A DNA stretch of 10,198 bases from Candidatus Iainarchaeum sp. (GTDB lineage Archaea > Iainarchaeota > Iainarchaeia > Iainarchaeales > JAAZKV01), in contig JAPLVQ010000139.1 of NCBI GenBank assembly GCA_026397035.1, forward strand, positions 1-10,198, written 5' to 3'. The notes beneath the pieces were generated by a model. The model did no database searches and was not told the origin of the DNA. It was given only the letters and a program-made list of their open reading frames with translations. Positions 462 to 10,012 of this stretch are shown piece after piece. The translations under genes and the position numbers were made by a program. How positions within the stretch are numbered: the first letter of the stretch is position 1; every line of letters starts with the position of its first letter.

Positions 462-745
462 TTCATCTCTAACCTTTTGGAAAAATAAAAAAAGGTCCAA
501 CAATATGGCTCTTTTTGTGACTTCCGAAGTATTGGTTATAATCCCCTGAAGTTGCAACCCTCGAGTTCTTTAGAATAATTGAAAACAATTGCTTTTCTTT
601 GTCCCTTGAGTACTGAATAAAAACTTCTTCCTCATGCTCGCCAAAAATTAGCAAATCCCCCTTTGAGTCAATAAAAAAATCTTCCACCCTAAAACCGTCA
701 ATAAACTCCGCAATTTTATCCGTAATATGCCCTTTAGCAATGCTC

Positions 746-766
746 CCTAAATCTGCTGTGTTGCAT
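746..766. repeat. Left end: target duplication plus terminal inverted repeat
   Basis: CCTAAATC (746-753) is the left target-site copy and TGCTGTGTTGCAT (754-766) the left terminal repeat. Both match the right end perfectly. Confidence 0.85.
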
Positions 767-894
767 TATTATGCTTCTCATACTTTTTAGTATCGCAAAC
801 CAACAAAGTTCAAACTTTGGTATTTGCTTCTCAAACTTGATAACATTCAAGTATTTGAACATCAAACCAAAAAAAGGAGTTATGCAACACAGCA
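754..894. mobile_element. MITE-like non-autonomous element, 141 bp
   Basis: The element is bounded by perfect 13-bp terminal inverted repeats, TGCTGTGTTGCAT at 754-766 and ATGCAACACAGCA at 882-894. These are flanked by identical 8-bp direct repeats, CCTAAATC. It has no transposase and no ORF of useful length. Inside are a 7-bp hairpin with a 2-base loop (CAAAGTT at 804-810, AACTTTG at 813-819), a 5-bp hairpin around ATACT/AGTAT near 786-799, and a 9-bp direct repeat TGCTTCTCA at 772-780 and 825-833. An 8-bp duplication is the length typical of IS6- and IS1595-family transposases, so one of those could be the mobilising partner, but the family is not established. The insertion lies in the apbE relic, and the perfect ends suggest it is fairly recent. 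Confidence 0.85.
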
Positions 895-902
895 CCTAAA
901 TC
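882..902. repeat. Right end: terminal inverted repeat plus target duplication
   Basis: ATGCAACACAGCA (882-894) is the exact reverse complement of the left terminal repeat and is followed by the second CCTAAATC (895-902). Only one of the two octamers belongs to the original apbE sequence. Confidence 0.85.
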
Positions 903-936
903 CACCAAAGCTTTTTTATTATTCAAAGTTGCATTA

Positions 937-1458
937 ATGAGCATGGGTTTGCGAAGAAAAAATCATCCTCTCCCGGGACAAGCAGGGCATGCAAAAAGCA
1001 TTTGGAAGAGGTACGCTATTAGGGTAGATGATTTTGGAAACAAACTTTGCTCAAGAAGAGAAGAGAATAGAGCCCCAAACCAACCTTCTTTTGGGTTTAT
1101 TGTAAATAAATTAAGGGTTCCAAAAAAAGCTCTTGAGGCTCTTGCCCCGCGCACCCCAACCGCTAAATTATTGTTAAGAAAAATGACAACAAATGAGCGT
1201 TTGAACGAGTTAAATGTTATGGTTAAGCTTCACTTAAAGACGCTCGCGGGCTGGAGAAGAAAAGGGGTTCTATCCCCGAAAGATTTTGATTTGAGGGCAA
1301 AAGATACTTGGGAGCTTTTTGAGAAATGCAAAAGGGGTATATGCACTCCAGAAGATTTTATGGCAAACAGCTGGCTTGATATTTTTAGAAAGCATGCGCT
1401 CAAAGAAGGCGAAGGGTATTATGAGTCGCTGGTAAAAAGAACAATTCATCAAAAATAA
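937..1458 (+). CDS. Hypothetical protein, 173 aa, possibly 5'-truncated
   Basis: This is a long open frame of basic, soluble character, with no signal peptide or membrane segment. Its C-terminal half looks helical (for example LNVMVKLHLKTLAGWRRKG and FMANSWLDIFRKHALKEG). I do not recognise the family. The frame is open further upstream, back through the right end of the MITE-like element, but the first ATG is at 937, with another at 943. No Shine-Dalgarno sequence or convincing TATA box precedes it. Its first codons overlap DNA that reads as apbE on the other strand, so the current start is probably accidental: either the real start is internal (an ATG at 1183 is possible) or the gene lost its 5' end when it was joined to the apbE relic. 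It converges on the HicA-domain gene with only 27 bases between the stops. Confidence 0.5.
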   Translation: MSMGLRRKNHPLPGQAGHAKSIWKRYAIRVDDFGNKLCSRREENRAPNQPSFGFIVNKLRVPKKALEALAPRTPTAKLLLRKMTTNERLNELNVMVKLHLKTLAGWRRKGVLSPKDFDLRAKDTWELFEKCKRGICTPEDFMANSWLDIFRKHALKEGEGYYESLVKRTIHQK

Positions 1459-2654: not shown

Positions 2655-3686
2655 TCATATCGGTCGTATTACAACTTTTCCGCCGTTGATTTCTCCGCGT
2701 TGCCCTGTTTTGAGGTTTAATCCAAGGATTTGGAATGCGGTTTGATAATCCTTAATAGAAATAGTGTGGGTAATGATTTTCTTAAAGGATTTATTGTCTT
2801 TGAGCATTTTTATCGCGGGTTCAAAAGTTAAGTTAGAATCAATGGATCCAATTATTCGTATTCCATTATCAGTCAAAAAAGAGGGTTTGATTTTCGCTTC
2901 AAAGCTATAATCAAGCCCTGCTACAATAATATCTCCTCCACGGTCAACCACATTAATCAGTTCTTTTAACAATCTCCCGCTCGTGTCAACCACTATGTCA
3001 AACTTTCTCATAGAGTTAACTAAAAGTAAATCCATTTTTGTATAATTTTGAACTTCTCTAAACAGTCCTTGGGCTTGTTTTACTCTGTATTCAGAAATAT
3101 CTCCTATTGTTACTTCGCACCCCATTGTGCGTGCTGCGAGTCCAAAGAGTAGTCCTATTGGTCCTGCTCCGACAATAAGTACTCGTGATTCGTAGCTGAT
3201 TCGGCTTTGTCTTAAAGCATTTAGTACGCAAGCCAATGGTTCAGTTAGTGTAGCTTCTTCAAAAGATAATTCTTCGGGGAGTTCGTGCAAAAAGGAAGCG
3301 TTTACGACGTGGTATTTTGCATAAGTTCCATTATGAGATACTCCTGTTTCTGTGTGGTGTTTTTCCGCGCAATAGTTTGGTCGGTTGTTTTGGCAGTAAA
3401 AGCAAATCCCGCAGTGGTAGGTAGGATCAATTATAATTTTGTCCCCTACTTTTACATTTTTCACTTTTGAGCCTACTTCTTTAACAATTCCAGAAGATTC
3501 GTGTCCTAAAATAATTCCGTACTTGGCTTTGTATTCTTTTCTTAGTATATGAATATCGGTTCCGCAAATCCCAGTGGCTTTTATTTGAATTAGCACATCA
3601 TACTCATCACTAATTTTTGGTATTGGAACATTTACTAGTTCCAGTGCTTTATTTTCGCTATATACAAGTGCTTTCATAGTATTCAT
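2655..3686 (-). CDS. Zinc-dependent medium-chain (sugar-)alcohol dehydrogenase
   Basis: This 343-residue protein has full family length and belongs to the MDR superfamily near sorbitol/L-threonine/polyol dehydrogenases. Catalytic zinc ligands are visible as Cys41 (GICGTD), His62-Glu63 (GHESSG) and Glu149 (TEPLAC). The structural zinc site is complete: Cys92, Cys95, Cys98 and Cys106. The Rossmann motif is GAGPIG (173-178), with Asp196 at the end of the next strand, which favours NAD over NADP. It should reversibly oxidise a secondary alcohol to a ketone in the cytoplasm. The start ATG overlaps the phosphatase stop as ATGA, so it is translationally coupled as the last gene of the operon; ATG 3677 (MKALVYSENK) is a possible alternative start. 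The preceding aminotransferase and phosphatase genes suggest it makes or consumes a keto-polyol that is aminated. The substrate cannot be read from the sequence. Confidence 0.9.
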   Translation of the reverse strand: MNTMKALVYSENKALELVNVPIPKISDEYDVLIQIKATGICGTDIHILRKEYKAKYGIILGHESSGIVKEVGSKVKNVKVGDKIIIDPTYHCGICFYCQNNRPNYCAEKHHTETGVSHNGTYAKYHVVNASFLHELPEELSFEEATLTEPLACVLNALRQSRISYESRVLIVGAGPIGLLFGLAARTMGCEVTIGDISEYRVKQAQGLFREVQNYTKMDLLLVNSMRKFDIVVDTSGRLLKELINVVDRGGDIIVAGLDYSFEAKIKPSFLTDNGIRIIGSIDSNLTFEPAIKMLKDNKSFKKIITHTISIKDYQTAFQILGLNLKTGQRGEINGGKVVIRPI

Positions 3687-4693
3687 AAATTTTCACTTCC
3701 CCAGTTAAGTTGGTTCATAATCTTTTGGTGTAAGTCAGGATTTGAAGCTGCGATTATTGAGCACTGCCCTTTTATGCTTTTATCAGTTGTGAGAACGAGT
3801 TCATCTAGACTTTTTCCATAAGCGTCAGTCACGACCCCTCCCGCTTTACTCAAAATAAATGCCGCTGCCGCAATGTCATATGGAAAAAGAGTAACAACCT
3901 TTCCCCGCCCGACTTTTAGAAATTCTTCTTCAAGTTCTGGATGATCCAAAAGTATTCTGTGTCCTACATCAACATGTGAGTCTAATTGTCCCGTAAGTAT
4001 CCTTGTTAATGAAAATGAAGCGCTTGTAAAAACAAATACCGCTCCTGTTGTCACAGAATTATCAATCAAGTCTCCGCATACTTTTGTGATTTGCTTTATC
4101 GGGTGCGCAGTGAGTTCGGTGCTCCAAAACATATTATCAAGTTCAATTTCTTTATTTAGTAATGGTACTTGCGGAACCGAGCTCATAATTTTTGGCTGAC
4201 TTCTATCCGCATAAAAATAATCCCCGCTTTTTAATTCAAGTATTAAAGCATTAGTGATTTCTCCAAATACAGGACGTTTAGAGTAAGGCACTACTGCAGC
4301 AGAGAAGCAGCAGCTTTCAAAATTAGCCATTGCGGGTCTTGTTCCGTCAATTGGATCTATTATGAGCAGCCACTTTGGGTTTTTGTGAACAGAAATCATT
4401 CCCCTGTCTTCAGAAAAATAAGCTATAGGAAGTTTCCATTCTTGCAGTGCTTTTTCAACGATTGTCTCAGCAAGCTCGTCGATCTCAAAATGCGGGTCTC
4501 CCCCGTATTGTCTTCGAATAATTTCCCGTTTGTTATTATTTAACTTAGGCAGAACAGCTTTTCGAACGTTTGTTGCAAGTTTTAACAGTTCAGTAAGCAT
4601 GGATAATTCTTCACCAGTCCCAGTTGGATTATCTTTCTTGACAAAAATATTCTTCTTAACAGAAGTACTCTTTTCGACAGAATTGTTTTTCAT
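3683..4693 (-). CDS. Inositol-monophosphatase-family sugar/polyol phosphatase
   Basis: The protein has 336 residues and the metal-dependent, lithium-sensitive-type phosphatase fold. Motifs in order are GGDPHFEIDELAE (64-76), FSED with metal ligand Glu95, IIDPIDGTRPAMAN (111-124; metal ligands Asp113 and Asp116), and PYDIAAAAFILSKAGG (271-286; Asp273 is the third metal aspartate). All catalytic residues are present. Members remove phosphate from inositol phosphates, fructose bisphosphate, phosphoadenosine phosphate or NADP; which applies here is not evident. The first roughly 27 residues are an added tail of hexapeptide repeats of xSVKKx type (TSVKKN, IFVKKD) encoded by an 18-bp DNA repeat; the conserved fold begins near residue 28. 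Both ends overlap neighbours by ATGA, placing it between aminotransferase and dehydrogenase. SpcA and StrO in aminocyclitol antibiotic pathways are family members with a comparable role. Confidence 0.88.
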   Translation of the reverse strand: MKNNSVEKSTSVKKNIFVKKDNPTGTGEELSMLTELLKLATNVRKAVLPKLNNNKREIIRRQYGGDPHFEIDELAETIVEKALQEWKLPIAYFSEDRGMISVHKNPKWLLIIDPIDGTRPAMANFESCCFSAAVVPYSKRPVFGEITNALILELKSGDYFYADRSQPKIMSSVPQVPLLNKEIELDNMFWSTELTAHPIKQITKVCGDLIDNSVTTGAVFVFTSASFSLTRILTGQLDSHVDVGHRILLDHPELEEEFLKVGRGKVVTLFPYDIAAAAFILSKAGGVVTDAYGKSLDELVLTTDKSIKGQCSIIAASNPDLHQKIMNQLNWGSENL

Positions 4694-4737
4694 AAAAGCA
4701 CCTTCTTATCATGTCCAGTTATTTCCTTATCAGAATC
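4613..4737 (-). repeat. Degenerate 18-bp tandem array across the aminotransferase/phosphatase junction
   Basis: Read on the minus strand from 4737, the DNA divides into about seven units of 18 bases; one unit, containing the ATGA overlap, has 17. Example units are GATTCTGATAAGGAAATA (4737-4720) and ACTTCTGTTAAGAAGAAT (4666-4649). The shared core is approximately NATTCTGNNAAGAA. The units encode the C-terminal DSDKEI-type tail of the aminotransferase and, in another frame, the xSVKKx N-terminal tail of the phosphatase. Their age and degeneracy make the outer limits uncertain. Confidence 0.6.
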
Positions 4738-6270
4738 CATTGATTTTTGATTATGTTTCGGATTTACTTGGGCAAATATTTCCAGTACTTCTTTAGTTAA
4801 ATCGCCAAGGTTTTTTGGATTATATATTTCATTAAGAACTAAGTCAAGTGTTGTAAATGCCTGTTGTAATTGTTTTGTAGTTGTTATTAATGGTGGCTGG
4901 AACATTAAAGTGTTTCCAAGGTGGCGGTATCTGGAATTGGAAATTATTATTCCTCTTTGGAGCATTTTTGAAACAATTAAATCAGCAGTCTTCGCATCCT
5001 CTGCTCCAAAATTATTCACTATATCAATCGCACCTTTTAGACCCATGCATCTGGCATTTTTCAAATTAGGATACTTTTTTTCAAGATTTTCAAGCGAAAT
5101 CTTGATTAAGTAACTTAATTCTTCAGTTCGCCCTAAGGCGGGCGCTAGCTCTTTTAAATAAGCGAGTCCCGCGCTTATGCTGACTGGGTTGTGGGCGAAC
5201 GTAAAGGAGTGGTCACCAGGCTCAAAAGCATATTTTTCCTTGTAAATAGTACCAGCAAGAGGGAATCCTCCTCCGATTGCTTTTCCAAACACTAAGATGT
5301 CAGGAATAATTTCGTATTCACTGCACAAGAAAGTTACTCCCATGCATCCAAATCCGGTCTGGACTTCATCAATAATCATCGCTACTCCATGCTTGTCACA
5401 CAAATTTCTTATTCCTTTAACTAAATTTTTGTCCAGGATTTTGCATCCTGAGTTTCCTTGTATTAGTTCAAGAATAATTCCTGCGGGTTTTTCTTTTACC
5501 ATCTTTTCTTCAATATCAAAAATATCTTTTTTGACTTCAATTCCATTGGTAAAGTAATTCTTGTACTTGCTTTGGGGCAATTTCCAGCTGACCCCCATAG
5601 TAGCAAAGCTCCTTCCATGGAACCCATCTTCTAAATACAATATCTTGTCCCTGTCTTTATAGTAATTAATAGCTAATTTCATGGCTCCTTCAACAGCAAG
5701 GCTTCCGTGGAGTACAAAATTAACTTTGGCTAGACCTGTTGGAGCTAGTTCAAGTATTTTTTGCACGAGTTCAGTTTTTTCTGGAGTAGCATAAGCGGTT
5801 CTTAAATGAGTTATTTCTAATAGTTGTTTTCTCACTGCCGCAATTACTTTCTTATTATTGTGCCCTAAAGGCATTGACCATGTTTGAGAGAACATGTCAA
5901 AGTATCTTTTCCCGCTTGAGTCCCACAAATATACCCCGTTTGCTTTGTCAATAGTAAGGGCTTCGGAACAAATTGTGCTTCCTTCGCACATTGCGTGCCC
6001 TGCTTTTTTAACCGTTTCAATTGGTTGAATAACTTCACTTTCAAAACTTCTCGAATTCTCAAAATCTTTTAACTTCTCAGAATGTACTAAAACATCAGAA
6101 GTCATTGAACCCACTGGAGTTACTGTCTCCTTTGAAGGCGCCAAAATCCTAGAAGTCACTAAATTCCCAGAATCTGCCAGCCCCTCAGAATTCACTGAAC
6201 TCAATATAGTTTTGAAATCCTCAAAGTTTTTCGCAGTTTTTAAACTTTTTTCATTAAAATTTTGGCTCAT
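4690..6270 (-). CDS. Class III PLP-dependent aminotransferase with repeat-rich N-terminal extension
   Basis: The protein has 526 residues, against about 400-450 usual for the family. The core starts near residue 80. Landmarks are GVYLWDSSGKRYFDMFSQ (112-129), HGSLAVEGAMKLA (188-200; PLP phosphate-binding region), DGFHGRSFATMG (215-226), IIDEVQTGFG (299-308; Asp301 contacts the pyridine nitrogen), FGKAIGGGFPLAG (328-340; Lys330 forms the Schiff base) and SFTFAHNPVS (355-364). Residues 27-80 are nine hexapeptide repeats of xSxxLV type. The last 15 or so residues come from a related 18-bp repeat. It should transfer an amino group from an amino donor to an aldehyde or ketone. Its place ahead of a sugar-type phosphatase and a polyol dehydrogenase favours an amino-polyol or aminocyclitol product over ornithine or GABA metabolism, but this is inference. 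The start has GAAGG six bases upstream and a TATA box; an internal start after the repeats is possible. Confidence 0.9.
   Translation of the reverse strand: MSQNFNEKSLKTAKNFEDFKTILSSVNSEGLADSGNLVTSRILAPSKETVTPVGSMTSDVLVHSEKLKDFENSRSFESEVIQPIETVKKAGHAMCEGSTICSEALTIDKANGVYLWDSSGKRYFDMFSQTWSMPLGHNNKKVIAAVRKQLLEITHLRTAYATPEKTELVQKILELAPTGLAKVNFVLHGSLAVEGAMKLAINYYKDRDKILYLEDGFHGRSFATMGVSWKLPQSKYKNYFTNGIEVKKDIFDIEEKMVKEKPAGIILELIQGNSGCKILDKNLVKGIRNLCDKHGVAMIIDEVQTGFGCMGVTFLCSEYEIIPDILVFGKAIGGGFPLAGTIYKEKYAFEPGDHSFTFAHNPVSISAGLAYLKELAPALGRTEELSYLIKISLENLEKKYPNLKNARCMGLKGAIDIVNNFGAEDAKTADLIVSKMLQRGIIISNSRYRHLGNTLMFQPPLITTTKQLQQAFTTLDLVLNEIYNPKNLGDLTKEVLEIFAQVNPKHNQKSMDSDKEITGHDKKVLL
6031..6192 (-). 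repeat. Nine-unit degenerate 18-bp (hexapeptide) repeat in aminotransferase N-terminus
   Basis: The 162 bases from 6192 to 6031 divide into nine in-register 18-base units encoding residues 27-80. Example units are NSEGLA, TSRILA, TSDVLV and HSEKLK, with consensus x-S-x-x-L-(V/A). Serine codon TCT follows an A/C-T pair in most units (AATTCT, GATTCT, ACTTCT, CATTCT). The last two units (DFENSR, SFESEV) are the most diverged. The segment is serine-rich and probably disordered. Confidence 0.7.
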
Positions 6271-6541: not shown

Positions 6542-7570
6542 TTAGTTTTTTACTGCAAAGCAAGATTCACACTTTAAATCAATCGCTAATTCAGTTAGTG
6601 AAATCATGAATCTTGCAATTTTCTTTAAATGATGAAGTAATTCTTTTTCATAGTTATTGCCTAAAGGATAAAGCTTTTTTACGGTTTCAGCAAGTTCATG
6701 ATCATTCTCAAAGATTTTTATCGCTTTTTGCTTTGTCGGACTGTAAAATAATTCATTATATGCTTCTATTTGGGAGTTAATATCTTTAAAGAAAACCAGG
6801 GCTGGTTTTCCATAGTTTTTGCTTTCTATTAATGCATGCTGTGCAATTCTTTTGTACTCGTCCCCTACCATTTCAAGGAGAAATATGGTTGAATACATTG
6901 CGGGCGTTTTCTTGTAATCCTCATACCCTTTAACGCTTAGTACTCTTAAGCAATAGTCCTCAAACCTGTCTAAATTAGTGTCAATCATGTGAATGCTTTT
7001 CAGTACAGAGAGATCATTTTTGTCTATTGCGGTTAATATGTCATCCCCTGTAGAAACAAGCAACATTTGAATTCTTCTTAGAGCGTTTCCAAACTCGTTA
7101 TAAGATATTTCCCCAAATTGTTTAACAATAACATAATTCGGTCTTTGTTCTGTTATTTCTACACCAATAAATCTGTTAATTATTGCTTGTACTGCATCAA
7201 GCGCGGTTAGTTTTAACGAGCTTTTTTTTGGCAATTCTCCTCTATATATCCAGTCAGTCATGTCATGTGAGAATTCCAAAAACCTTTCCTTATCGTCCTC
7301 TATTCCGCCAAAATTAATCTTTATTTCATCATATCCCGCCCTGTACGCAGAAGAAATAAATCTCCAAATTAGCTGGTTAGGCAGACCAGTAATATCAATT
7401 TCTATTTTCCCAAAAGATTCTTTATTATTTTCAGCGTTAATTATGAGGGTTTTGCCTTGTTCTATAACATCAATTTCAGCCCCGGCCTTTACCCCTTGGG
7501 AATTCGCCCACTTTATTGGCAGAGTTAATGTATATGTATTATGCCCTTGTTTGATTACTTTTCGTTTCAC
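6542..7570 (-). CDS. phoU: AbrB/SpoVT-PhoU domain phosphate-uptake regulator
   Basis: The N-terminus KRKVIKQGHNTYTLTLPIKW followed by VKAGAEIDVIEQGKTLII is a swapped-hairpin SpoVT/AbrB-type DNA-binding domain. From about residue 140 the protein is all-helical with PhoU-like repeats (EFGNALRRIQMLLVSTGDD, LEMVGDEYKRIAQHALIES, LLHHLKKIARFMISLTELAI). This architecture is common in archaea, where the protein is thought to bind DNA and modulate phosphate transport. I prefer GTG 7570 (MKRKVIKQG, 342 residues), the form usual for archaeal homologues, with GGGGGCG nine bases upstream. TTG 7588, six codons earlier, is the alternative. No pst transporter gene is in the window. It is divergent from the Imm1-like gene across an AT-rich region that may contain its own operator. 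Confidence 0.88.
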   Translation of the reverse strand: MKRKVIKQGHNTYTLTLPIKWANSQGVKAGAEIDVIEQGKTLIINAENNKESFGKIEIDITGLPNQLIWRFISSAYRAGYDEIKINFGGIEDDKERFLEFSHDMTDWIYRGELPKKSSLKLTALDAVQAIINRFIGVEITEQRPNYVIVKQFGEISYNEFGNALRRIQMLLVSTGDDILTAIDKNDLSVLKSIHMIDTNLDRFEDYCLRVLSVKGYEDYKKTPAMYSTIFLLEMVGDEYKRIAQHALIESKNYGKPALVFFKDINSQIEAYNELFYSPTKQKAIKIFENDHELAETVKKLYPLGNNYEKELLHHLKKIARFMISLTELAIDLKCESCFAVKN

Positions 7571-7654
7571 TCTTAATTTCGCCCCCAAAAAGCTTCAAGT
7601 ATATATTGGAGCGAAAAATATATAATATGATTGTTCACTATATATATCTTTAAA

Positions 7655-8539: not shown

Positions 8540-10012
8540 ATGGCTTCAGCTAAAACGGCATCTGATAATAACGATTCAGCAAGGCAAATGGCTCAAATGG
8601 TGGAAGCTGTTTTGGGTAATCCTCTTTCGCGCGACTTAATAAAATTCTGTACCAAGAGATGCAAGTGCGGGAGAAGAGTAGAGCTGGCGCTTGAAGTTCT
8701 TTCAGGCATCAAACCAAAGCTTTGTCCAAAATGCGCCCTGGCATCGAAAATAATCAATTACATGATTACTTCCATCACAAAAAAGAATAATATTAAAGAT
8801 TCTGATTTAATGGCGTGTATAAAGGAGCCTTACTGGAGAAGGGGACTTGCCACTACTCTTGAAGGAATTGCAGAGTTTGGAATAAAAAAACCTTTCACGG
8901 GCTCAGCGCCTTTCTTAATAGTATGGAACATCACTAAAGCCTGTAATTTGGCGTGCAAGCATTGCTACGAGAATACCCATGTAAAAGCACCCGATGAATT
9001 GACCACTCAAGAAGCACTTGATGCCGTTGATTACCTTGCCGAACAGGGCTTAGCATATATTGCAGTTTCCGGCGGGGAGCCTTTAATGAGACCCGATTTT
9101 TTCCAAATCGCTGAAAAGATGAAGGAAAAGGGAATCGCTTTAAGCATTGCGACTAACGGGACATTAATCACAAAAGAGACTGCAAAGAAACTAAAAAGCG
9201 TTAATTGCCTTTACGCCCAAGTATCTGTTGACGGCGCGACGGCAAAAACCCACAATTCTTTTAGGGGAAGGAATAGTTTTGAGCAAACTCTTGAGGGGAT
9301 AAAAAATTTGGTTGCTGAAGGGATAATTGTGGGAATTTCTTGCACGGTTACAAGATTCAATATTAGAGAAGTTGAGAAAGAAATTGATTTGGCTGAAAAA
9401 ATCGGCGCTTCAATTTTCATGCATTATAATTTCATTCCTGTCGGAAGAGGTACAGAAATAGCAAAATATGATATTTCGCCAAAACAAAGAGAAGAATTAA
9501 TGTTGACTCTTGCAAAACAGAATGGAAAGAGAAAAGTTACTCTGCTCTCAACCGCGCCCCAATATGCAAGGGTTTGTTCGGGTTTTTCAATTGCTTCCCT
9601 TTCACATTTTGATGTTTTTGGCACTAATCCCGAAATGACAAAGTCCTCGGCTTTTTTAGCTGATTTTGTAGGCGGGTGCGGCACTGGAAGATTATACCTC
9701 GCGATGGAACCTAACGGGGACATCAAACCTTGCGTTTTTATTCCAATTAAGATTGGAAATATTAAGAACAGGAATTTTGACAAAATTTGGAGGGAAGACA
9801 AGAGCCTTCTTGAATTAAGAGACAGAAAGTCCTTCAAAGGTAATTGCGGCTACTGCAAATTCACTTCTTCCTGCGGGGGTTGCCGAGCAAGAGCCCTTGG
9901 TTACTTTGATTCATTAAGCGCGCCTGACCCGGGATGCGTACTAAACCAGAAATATTGGGATAAAATAGTGAAGGGAAAAACAAAAAAGAAGAAAAACAAG
10001 AAAAAGAAATAA
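8540..10012 (+). CDS. Radical SAM/SPASM protein with N-terminal cysteine module
   Basis: A 490-residue protein. The radical SAM cluster motif is CNLACKHC (Cys135, Cys139, Cys142), which binds the [4Fe-4S] cluster that cleaves S-adenosylmethionine. SGGEPL (177-182), ATNGTLI (204-210) and VSVDGA (229-234) are the usual core strands. A C-terminal SPASM-type domain supplies Cys380, Cys398, Cys436, Cys439, Cys445, Cys448 and Cys466 (CGYCKFTSSCGGC), enough for auxiliary clusters. Before the core, CTKRCKCG (37-44) and LCPKC (61-65) form an extra five-cysteine module that may bind zinc or another cluster. The linker WRRGLATTLEGIAEFGIKKP is characteristic of a conserved archaeal group related to PqqE/AhbC/AhbD-type maturases. 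The C-terminus is a lysine tail (KTKKKKNKKKK). The exact reaction, whether peptide modification or cofactor synthesis, is unknown, and no precursor peptide is visible. It has its own promoter and converges on pyrB. Confidence 0.88.
   Translation: MASAKTASDNNDSARQMAQMVEAVLGNPLSRDLIKFCTKRCKCGRRVELALEVLSGIKPKLCPKCALASKIINYMITSITKKNNIKDSDLMACIKEPYWRRGLATTLEGIAEFGIKKPFTGSAPFLIVWNITKACNLACKHCYENTHVKAPDELTTQEALDAVDYLAEQGLAYIAVSGGEPLMRPDFFQIAEKMKEKGIALSIATNGTLITKETAKKLKSVNCLYAQVSVDGATAKTHNSFRGRNSFEQTLEGIKNLVAEGIIVGISCTVTRFNIREVEKEIDLAEKIGASIFMHYNFIPVGRGTEIAKYDISPKQREELMLTLAKQNGKRKVTLLSTAPQYARVCSGFSIASLSHFDVFGTNPEMTKSSAFLADFVGGCGTGRLYLAMEPNGDIKPCVFIPIKIGNIKNRNFDKIWREDKSLLELRDRKSFKGNCGYCKFTSSCGGCRARALGYFDSLSAPDPGCVLNQKYWDKIVKGKTKKKKNKKKK

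Follow-up and report, generated by a model that had tools for sequence, protein, structure and literature searches.

A two-copy 141-bp MITE, very probably of the IS5 family, in an archaeon from the order that includes Candidatus Forterrea

What is the 141-bp sequence, bounded by perfect inverted repeats and flanked on both sides by the same 8 bp, that lies near one end of a contig of Candidatus Iainarchaeum sp., and which enzyme could have moved it there? The whole stretch of DNA analysed here, 10,198 bp long and referred to as the window, is contig C154 of the host assembly (G000), which comprises 1.29 Mb in 188 contigs and is 77% complete. An earlier note on this DNA had read the locus as a MITE-like insertion. 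That reading is borne out by a second copy, by three same-genus genomes in which the corresponding gene pair is free of the element, and by IS5-family elements that share its ends. We find that the element is a real new MITE family of a well-known kind, and very probably an IS5-family MITE, that is, an IS derivative that keeps only the transposase-binding ends.

The terminal inverted repeats are complementary at 13 of 13 positions with 115 bp between them, exactly as had been claimed, and the 8-bp target duplication described earlier is present as perfect copies of CCTAAATC (Table 1). Counting perfect 13-bp inverted pairs at spacings of 20-600, the window contains three, and in one of these the 8-bp flanks match. 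In 300 dinucleotide-shuffled versions of the window such pairs averaged 0.34, and a pair with matching 8-bp flanks arose in 0 of the 300. The element spans 47 codons in all, with one frame per strand open throughout, which agrees with the claimed absence of a transposase. It is predicted to fold strongly (z = -6.3 for the 141 nt as RNA and -5.3 as DNA), and the 115-nt interior alone gives z = -3.9 as RNA, so the fold exceeds what the terminal repeats alone would provide. The internal hairpins and the 9-bp direct repeat reported from the first inspection both stand.

Table 1. Features of the MITE and its insertion site, in window coordinates.
Feature	Position	Strand	Basis
apbE-like coding sequence, 3' part, downstream of insertion	469..753	-	472-753 matches PF02424 127-214 of 266, E 5.6e-16
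Left target-site duplication CCTAAATC	746..753	.	Identity to 895-902
141-bp MITE, non-autonomous, no transposase gene	754..894	+	Two genomic copies, same exact boundaries, different 8-bp duplications
Left terminal inverted repeat TGCTGTGTTGCAT	754..766	+	
Internal 9-bp direct repeat TGCTTCTCA, copy 1	772..780	+	
Internal hairpin 1, 5-bp stem	780..793	+	Predicted fold
Internal hairpin 2, 5-bp plus 6-bp stem	795..827	+	Predicted fold
Internal 9-bp direct repeat TGCTTCTCA, copy 2	825..833	+	
Internal hairpin 3, 6-bp stem extended to 10	831..858	+	Predicted fold
Right terminal inverted repeat; element ends ATGCAACACAGCA	882..894	-	
Right target-site duplication CCTAAATC	895..902	.	Identity to 746-753
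Short 5' part, same apbE-like frame	895..944	-	Frames read without the element

A DNA search of the host genome returned two places only, the window and C125:3508-3649. The second copy (G000:C125:3509-3649) is likewise 141 bp long, is identical at 135 of 141 positions, has the same boundaries and 13/13 terminal repeats, and is flanked on both sides by a perfect 8-bp duplication of its own, AAACTTGC. The earlier note had proposed looking for copies with different 8-bp flanks, and the contrast of AAACTTGC with CCTAAATC supplies them: different flanks, equal duplication length and equal boundaries are together the signature of transposition. The element thus combines what marks a MITE, namely 13/13 terminal repeats in both copies, a short length without a transposase, a duplication of constant length (8 bp twice) at different sequences, and repetition in the genome, although in low number (two copies in a 77% complete assembly). 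The six positions at which the copies differ all lie within element positions 107-126. The C125 copy carries a run of 18 A at G000:C125:3613-3630 (L003 2614-2631), corresponding to window 858-875; five of the six differences lie in this run and all six are changes to A. The run could be due either to genuine slippage or to misassembly.

The neighbours of the second copy are a 201-aa gene on one side and, on the other, a small gene that we call zinc-ribbon-like from its cysteines, as it has no Pfam match. The 201-aa gene is present in four of the nine other genomes of the family, and in three of those four, all of the same genus (G001, G002 and G003), the small gene lies beside it. Measured between homologous codons, partly by extrapolation over up to 17 unaligned residues, the distance across the pair is 197, 212 and 197 bp in G001, G002 and G003, respectively; in the host it is 357 bp, or 208 bp once the element and one duplication are subtracted. 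Judged by gene adjacency and spacing, the site of the second copy, and of that copy only, is apparently empty in these three relatives. A second copy with its own duplication, together with the empty-site spacing in three relatives, identifies a true two-copy MITE. In a DNA search at E 0.001, 52 other genomes from the order gave no hit to the element.

The copy in the window landed in an apbE-like frame, in a gene perhaps already decaying beforehand. The insertion point falls in the D-L-G codons that open DLGSIAKG, and beyond it the frame can be followed for 16 codons back to an ATG, with a stop 6 codons further on; the apbE-like N-terminal half is thus mostly missing. None of the nine other genomes of the family had a match to the apbE-like piece, and no orthologous site was found for this copy. 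The adjoining 173-aa ORF (window 937-1458) returned only itself in a large protein search and is possibly an orphan gene or no gene. Elsewhere in the window, three minus-strand genes that overlap by 4 bp (2655-6270) look like one operon; their products are a zinc-dependent dehydrogenase, a protein resembling inositol phosphatases and a class-III aminotransferase extended by about 100 residues at its N-terminus. The minus-strand product of 6542-7588 has a MazE-type N-terminal domain just under the Pfam cut-off and no NCBIfam match. The product of 8540-10012 is a Radical SAM/SPASM protein with relatives among heme-synthesis and peptide-maturase families; it falls below the cut-off for each of the best 25 of 90 NCBIfam models.

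The ends of the element recur in the order: the exact 13-base end is found in 15 of 75 genomes, host included. The earlier note had suggested a search for a full-length IS with the same ends, and relatives do carry IS5-family elements whose ends are the same or nearly so. A Candidatus Diapherotrites MAG (G066:C110, JAFGEM010000076.1) has a 1101-bp IS with both ends and a 315-aa transposase; G042:C75 has an IS of 1051 or 1068 bp with both ends and its transposase in two frames; and G035:C12 has a 1266-bp IS with a transposase between both ends. In G066 and G035:C12 the second end differs at 1 of 13 bases. All three transposases exceed the 140-bit cut-off of NF033579 (NCBIfam, IS5 family transposase), with scores of 210.8 (G066), 156.4 (G035:C12) and 157.9 (G042, for the C-terminal 208 aa), so that IS5-family DDE transposases do lie between such ends; the G066 protein is deposited at NCBI as an IS5 family transposase. 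The transposase of G035:C12 (L216) is 33% identical to that of G042, yet the two elements have nearly the same 13-base ends.

The likeness goes past the 13-bp repeat. The first 17 bases of the MITE's left end equal the left end of an IS in G004, of the same genus, and its right end, read inward, shares an unbroken 21 bases with the 5' end of the G066 IS. The best match at each end comes from a different IS, but autonomous elements of the same genus and of the wider order have these ends in common with the MITE. Compared directly, the G066 IS has one end identical at 13/13 and the other at 12/13 positions; it differs from the MITE in its length and its transposase, and in lacking an 8-bp duplication at its locus.

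The three IS-bearing genomes (G066, G042 and G035) belong to the same order as Ca. Forterrea, which NCBI taxonomy places within the phylum Candidatus Iainarchaeota; as a member of that order, the host should fall there as well. Candidatus Forterrea multitransposorum itself (CP045477.1; G012:C1) has two copies of a related IS, with 36% identity to that of G066 and a changed end, AATTGTGTTGCA; one of the two copies has an 8-bp, T-rich duplication. Among nine loci with IS relatives, four that carry more distant ones, two in Archaeoglobales, one in Euryarchaeota and one in Thermoproteota, were checked for ends and set aside as having no convincing matching ends. IS ends also occur back to back, 7 bp apart, at L169 (G055:C100:4560-4588) and in tandem, 4 bp apart, at L172 (G042:C75:1464-1493); these close-set ends may mark neighbouring insertions or junctions between IS.

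ISH1 is an IS5-family member with a subgroup of its own, and an 8-bp duplication, a feature of that subgroup, is seen at both MITE copies and in pairs of IS ends (three in G004, one in G073). None of the three IS contained on one contig (G066, G042 and G035:C12) is flanked by an 8-bp duplication, so for the IS the 8-bp rule rests on end pairing. In G004, 18 of 20 matches to the 11-base end are IS ends, 8 left and 10 right, the latter at the contig places of a transposase C-terminus; the other two (C45:23663 and C69:17578) were omitted, their inner bases being unlike IS ends. Three left/right pairs have matching 8-bp flanks, none match at 4, 6, 7, 9 or 10 and one other pair matches at 5, while five of the eight left ends have no partner. 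In G073, where 6 and 5 ends were compared (the matches in C7 and C44, of 13, being omitted on the same ground), one pair matches at 8 and none at 6, 7 or 9. In G004 and G073 almost every IS-type end is no more than about 260 bp away from the end of a contig, as expected of multicopy IS, which break assemblies.

The host assembly (77% complete, 188 contigs) yielded no IS with these ends. When up to two mismatches were allowed, 41 end-like sites turned up, against about 25 expected from base composition: four are exact and belong to the two copies, one falls within a long ORF, and the other 36 are two mismatches away; 26 of the 37 remaining sites (one or two mismatches) were searched for a pair with a duplication, and none was found. 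The single one-mismatch end, at G000:C159:3468-3480 within an open frame of 1994 aa, was put down to chance. Three DDE_Tnp_1 genes are present, on C59, C144 and C107; in the stretches examined around them no end came closer than 3 mismatches, with one side out of view for the C59 and C107 genes, which are close to contig ends.

These results bear on a variant of the IS5-MITE explanation that does not exclude it: the element would be a real MITE that is now immobile in this host, its parent IS having been lost. The missing parent, the presence of two copies only and the clustering of all six differences at element positions 107-126 would fit such a history. Perfect duplications and terminal repeats at both sites, however, suggest recent moves, and a parent could have escaped an assembly that is 77% complete, given that multicopy IS break assemblies, as the ends in G004 illustrate. 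We regard this variant as possible, but less likely than not.

Other MITEs on nearly the same ends occur in the order. G030:C53 has a 129-bp element with the duplication GCACTTGA; G035:C111 has a 131-bp element with the duplication AAGGCCAA and one end off by two bases; and G035 has three further, scaffold-gapped copies (C37, C45 and C105), each with an 8-bp duplication. The elements at G044:C38 (130 bp), G073:C44 (130 bp) and G056:C2 (104 bp) have no 8-bp duplication. A perfect 8-bp duplication is therefore found at five of eight non-host elements (104-131 bp), or at seven of ten when both host copies are included. Over roughly its first 52 bases, the G056:C2 element agrees, but for 3 mismatches, with an IS-type end in G050, of the same genus, which adjoins an ORF resembling a transposase N-terminus by eye; this match is consistent with internal deletion as the origin. 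When aligned with MAFFT, the host, G030, G035 and G044 elements are not clearly similar in their interiors, and the folding energies of these other MITEs are similar to that of the host element. At G030:C53 a 330-aa ORF (L167 1501-2603) with a LAGLIDADG-like domain (PF14528, E 2.4e-5) runs at its 3' end into the MITE (L167 1501-1629), which apparently supplies its last codons. The search for partner ends with duplications covered a minority of the 11-base end matches, and the order may hold further MITEs beyond the inspected loci. Both exact 13-mers at MITE spacing (gap 90-130 bp) were found nowhere in genome_contigs or viral_contigs, nor did a looser MITE-spacing search of viral_contigs return any.

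Parentage by the IS6/IS26 family was the first hypothesis, prompted by the 8-bp duplication and by the resemblance of the element ends to the IS6-type end (GG..nTGTTGCA), with which they share the TGTTGCA core. An excerpt of PMC6807381 also records 8-bp duplications for that family and names one of its MITEs, MITEHarch3, which to go by its name may have an archaeal host. We dropped this parentage as very improbable, since PF13610, the IS6 transposase domain, is absent from the host genome, the elements with these ends encode IS5-family transposases, and the match to IS ends runs 4 and 8 bp past the 13-bp repeat. That the element is a structured functional sequence (a small RNA, an attachment site or a regulatory hairpin) and no product of a transposon would suit its strong predicted fold but is scarcely credible, as no Rfam family reaches its gathering score within the window, the copies sit in different contexts with different 8-bp duplications, the other genomes searched have no match, and the other MITEs fold with similar energies on interiors that lack clear similarity.

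For the IS5-family MITE that we favour, the order of events can be outlined. The element would have originated by internal deletion of an IS5-family element. An IS5-family DDE transposase, supplied in trans, would bind its ends and cut it out in a cut-and-paste reaction; insertion would take place at staggered cuts 8 bp apart, and repair of the gaps would leave the 8-bp duplications. From the sequence comparisons above, the mobilising enzyme is most likely an ordinary IS5-type transposase.

Two known systems offer a comparison. In an excerpt of PMC3852290 that includes its Table 4, IS5-derived MITEs of Methanosarcina species and M. burtonii measure 140-252 bp, have terminal repeats of 15-17 bp and, as here, resemble their parent IS mainly at the ends, likewise in archaeal hosts. 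They differ in their direct repeats (0 or 3 bp, against 8 bp here) and in copy number (5-24, against 2 here), a comparison made by description. Part of the text of PMC7193027 describes ISH1 of Halobacterium as a 1.1-kb element with an 8-bp duplication in bop; it is archaeal, shares the duplication length and has about the length of the G066 IS, and differs from the MITE in being autonomous, again compared by description. MITE hosts named in an excerpt of a review (PMC10969869) are Sulfolobus, Halobacterium, Haloquadratum, one desulfurococcal species and several other archaeal genomes. Among the matches listed in literature searches on archaeal or DPANN MITEs, Forterrea, Iainarchaeota, Diapherotrites and ISH1, we recognised no paper describing the element, which is weak evidence of novelty.

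A broader reading, which we put forward as speculative and on balance unlikely, is that a single end sequence (TGCTGTGTTGCA) has hardly changed throughout the order while the transposases between such ends diverged to about one third identity, and that MITEs of 104-141 bp with different interiors arose repeatedly on it; the ends may then be interchangeable, with MITEs moved by transposases from other lineages, even in hosts without the parent IS. The element adds a MITE family and its parent class to what is known of little-studied small-genome archaea (DPANN; the order that includes Ca. Forterrea). Across this order, nearly the same ends are found on IS5-type elements and on several MITEs, in what is otherwise an ordinary mobile-element story.
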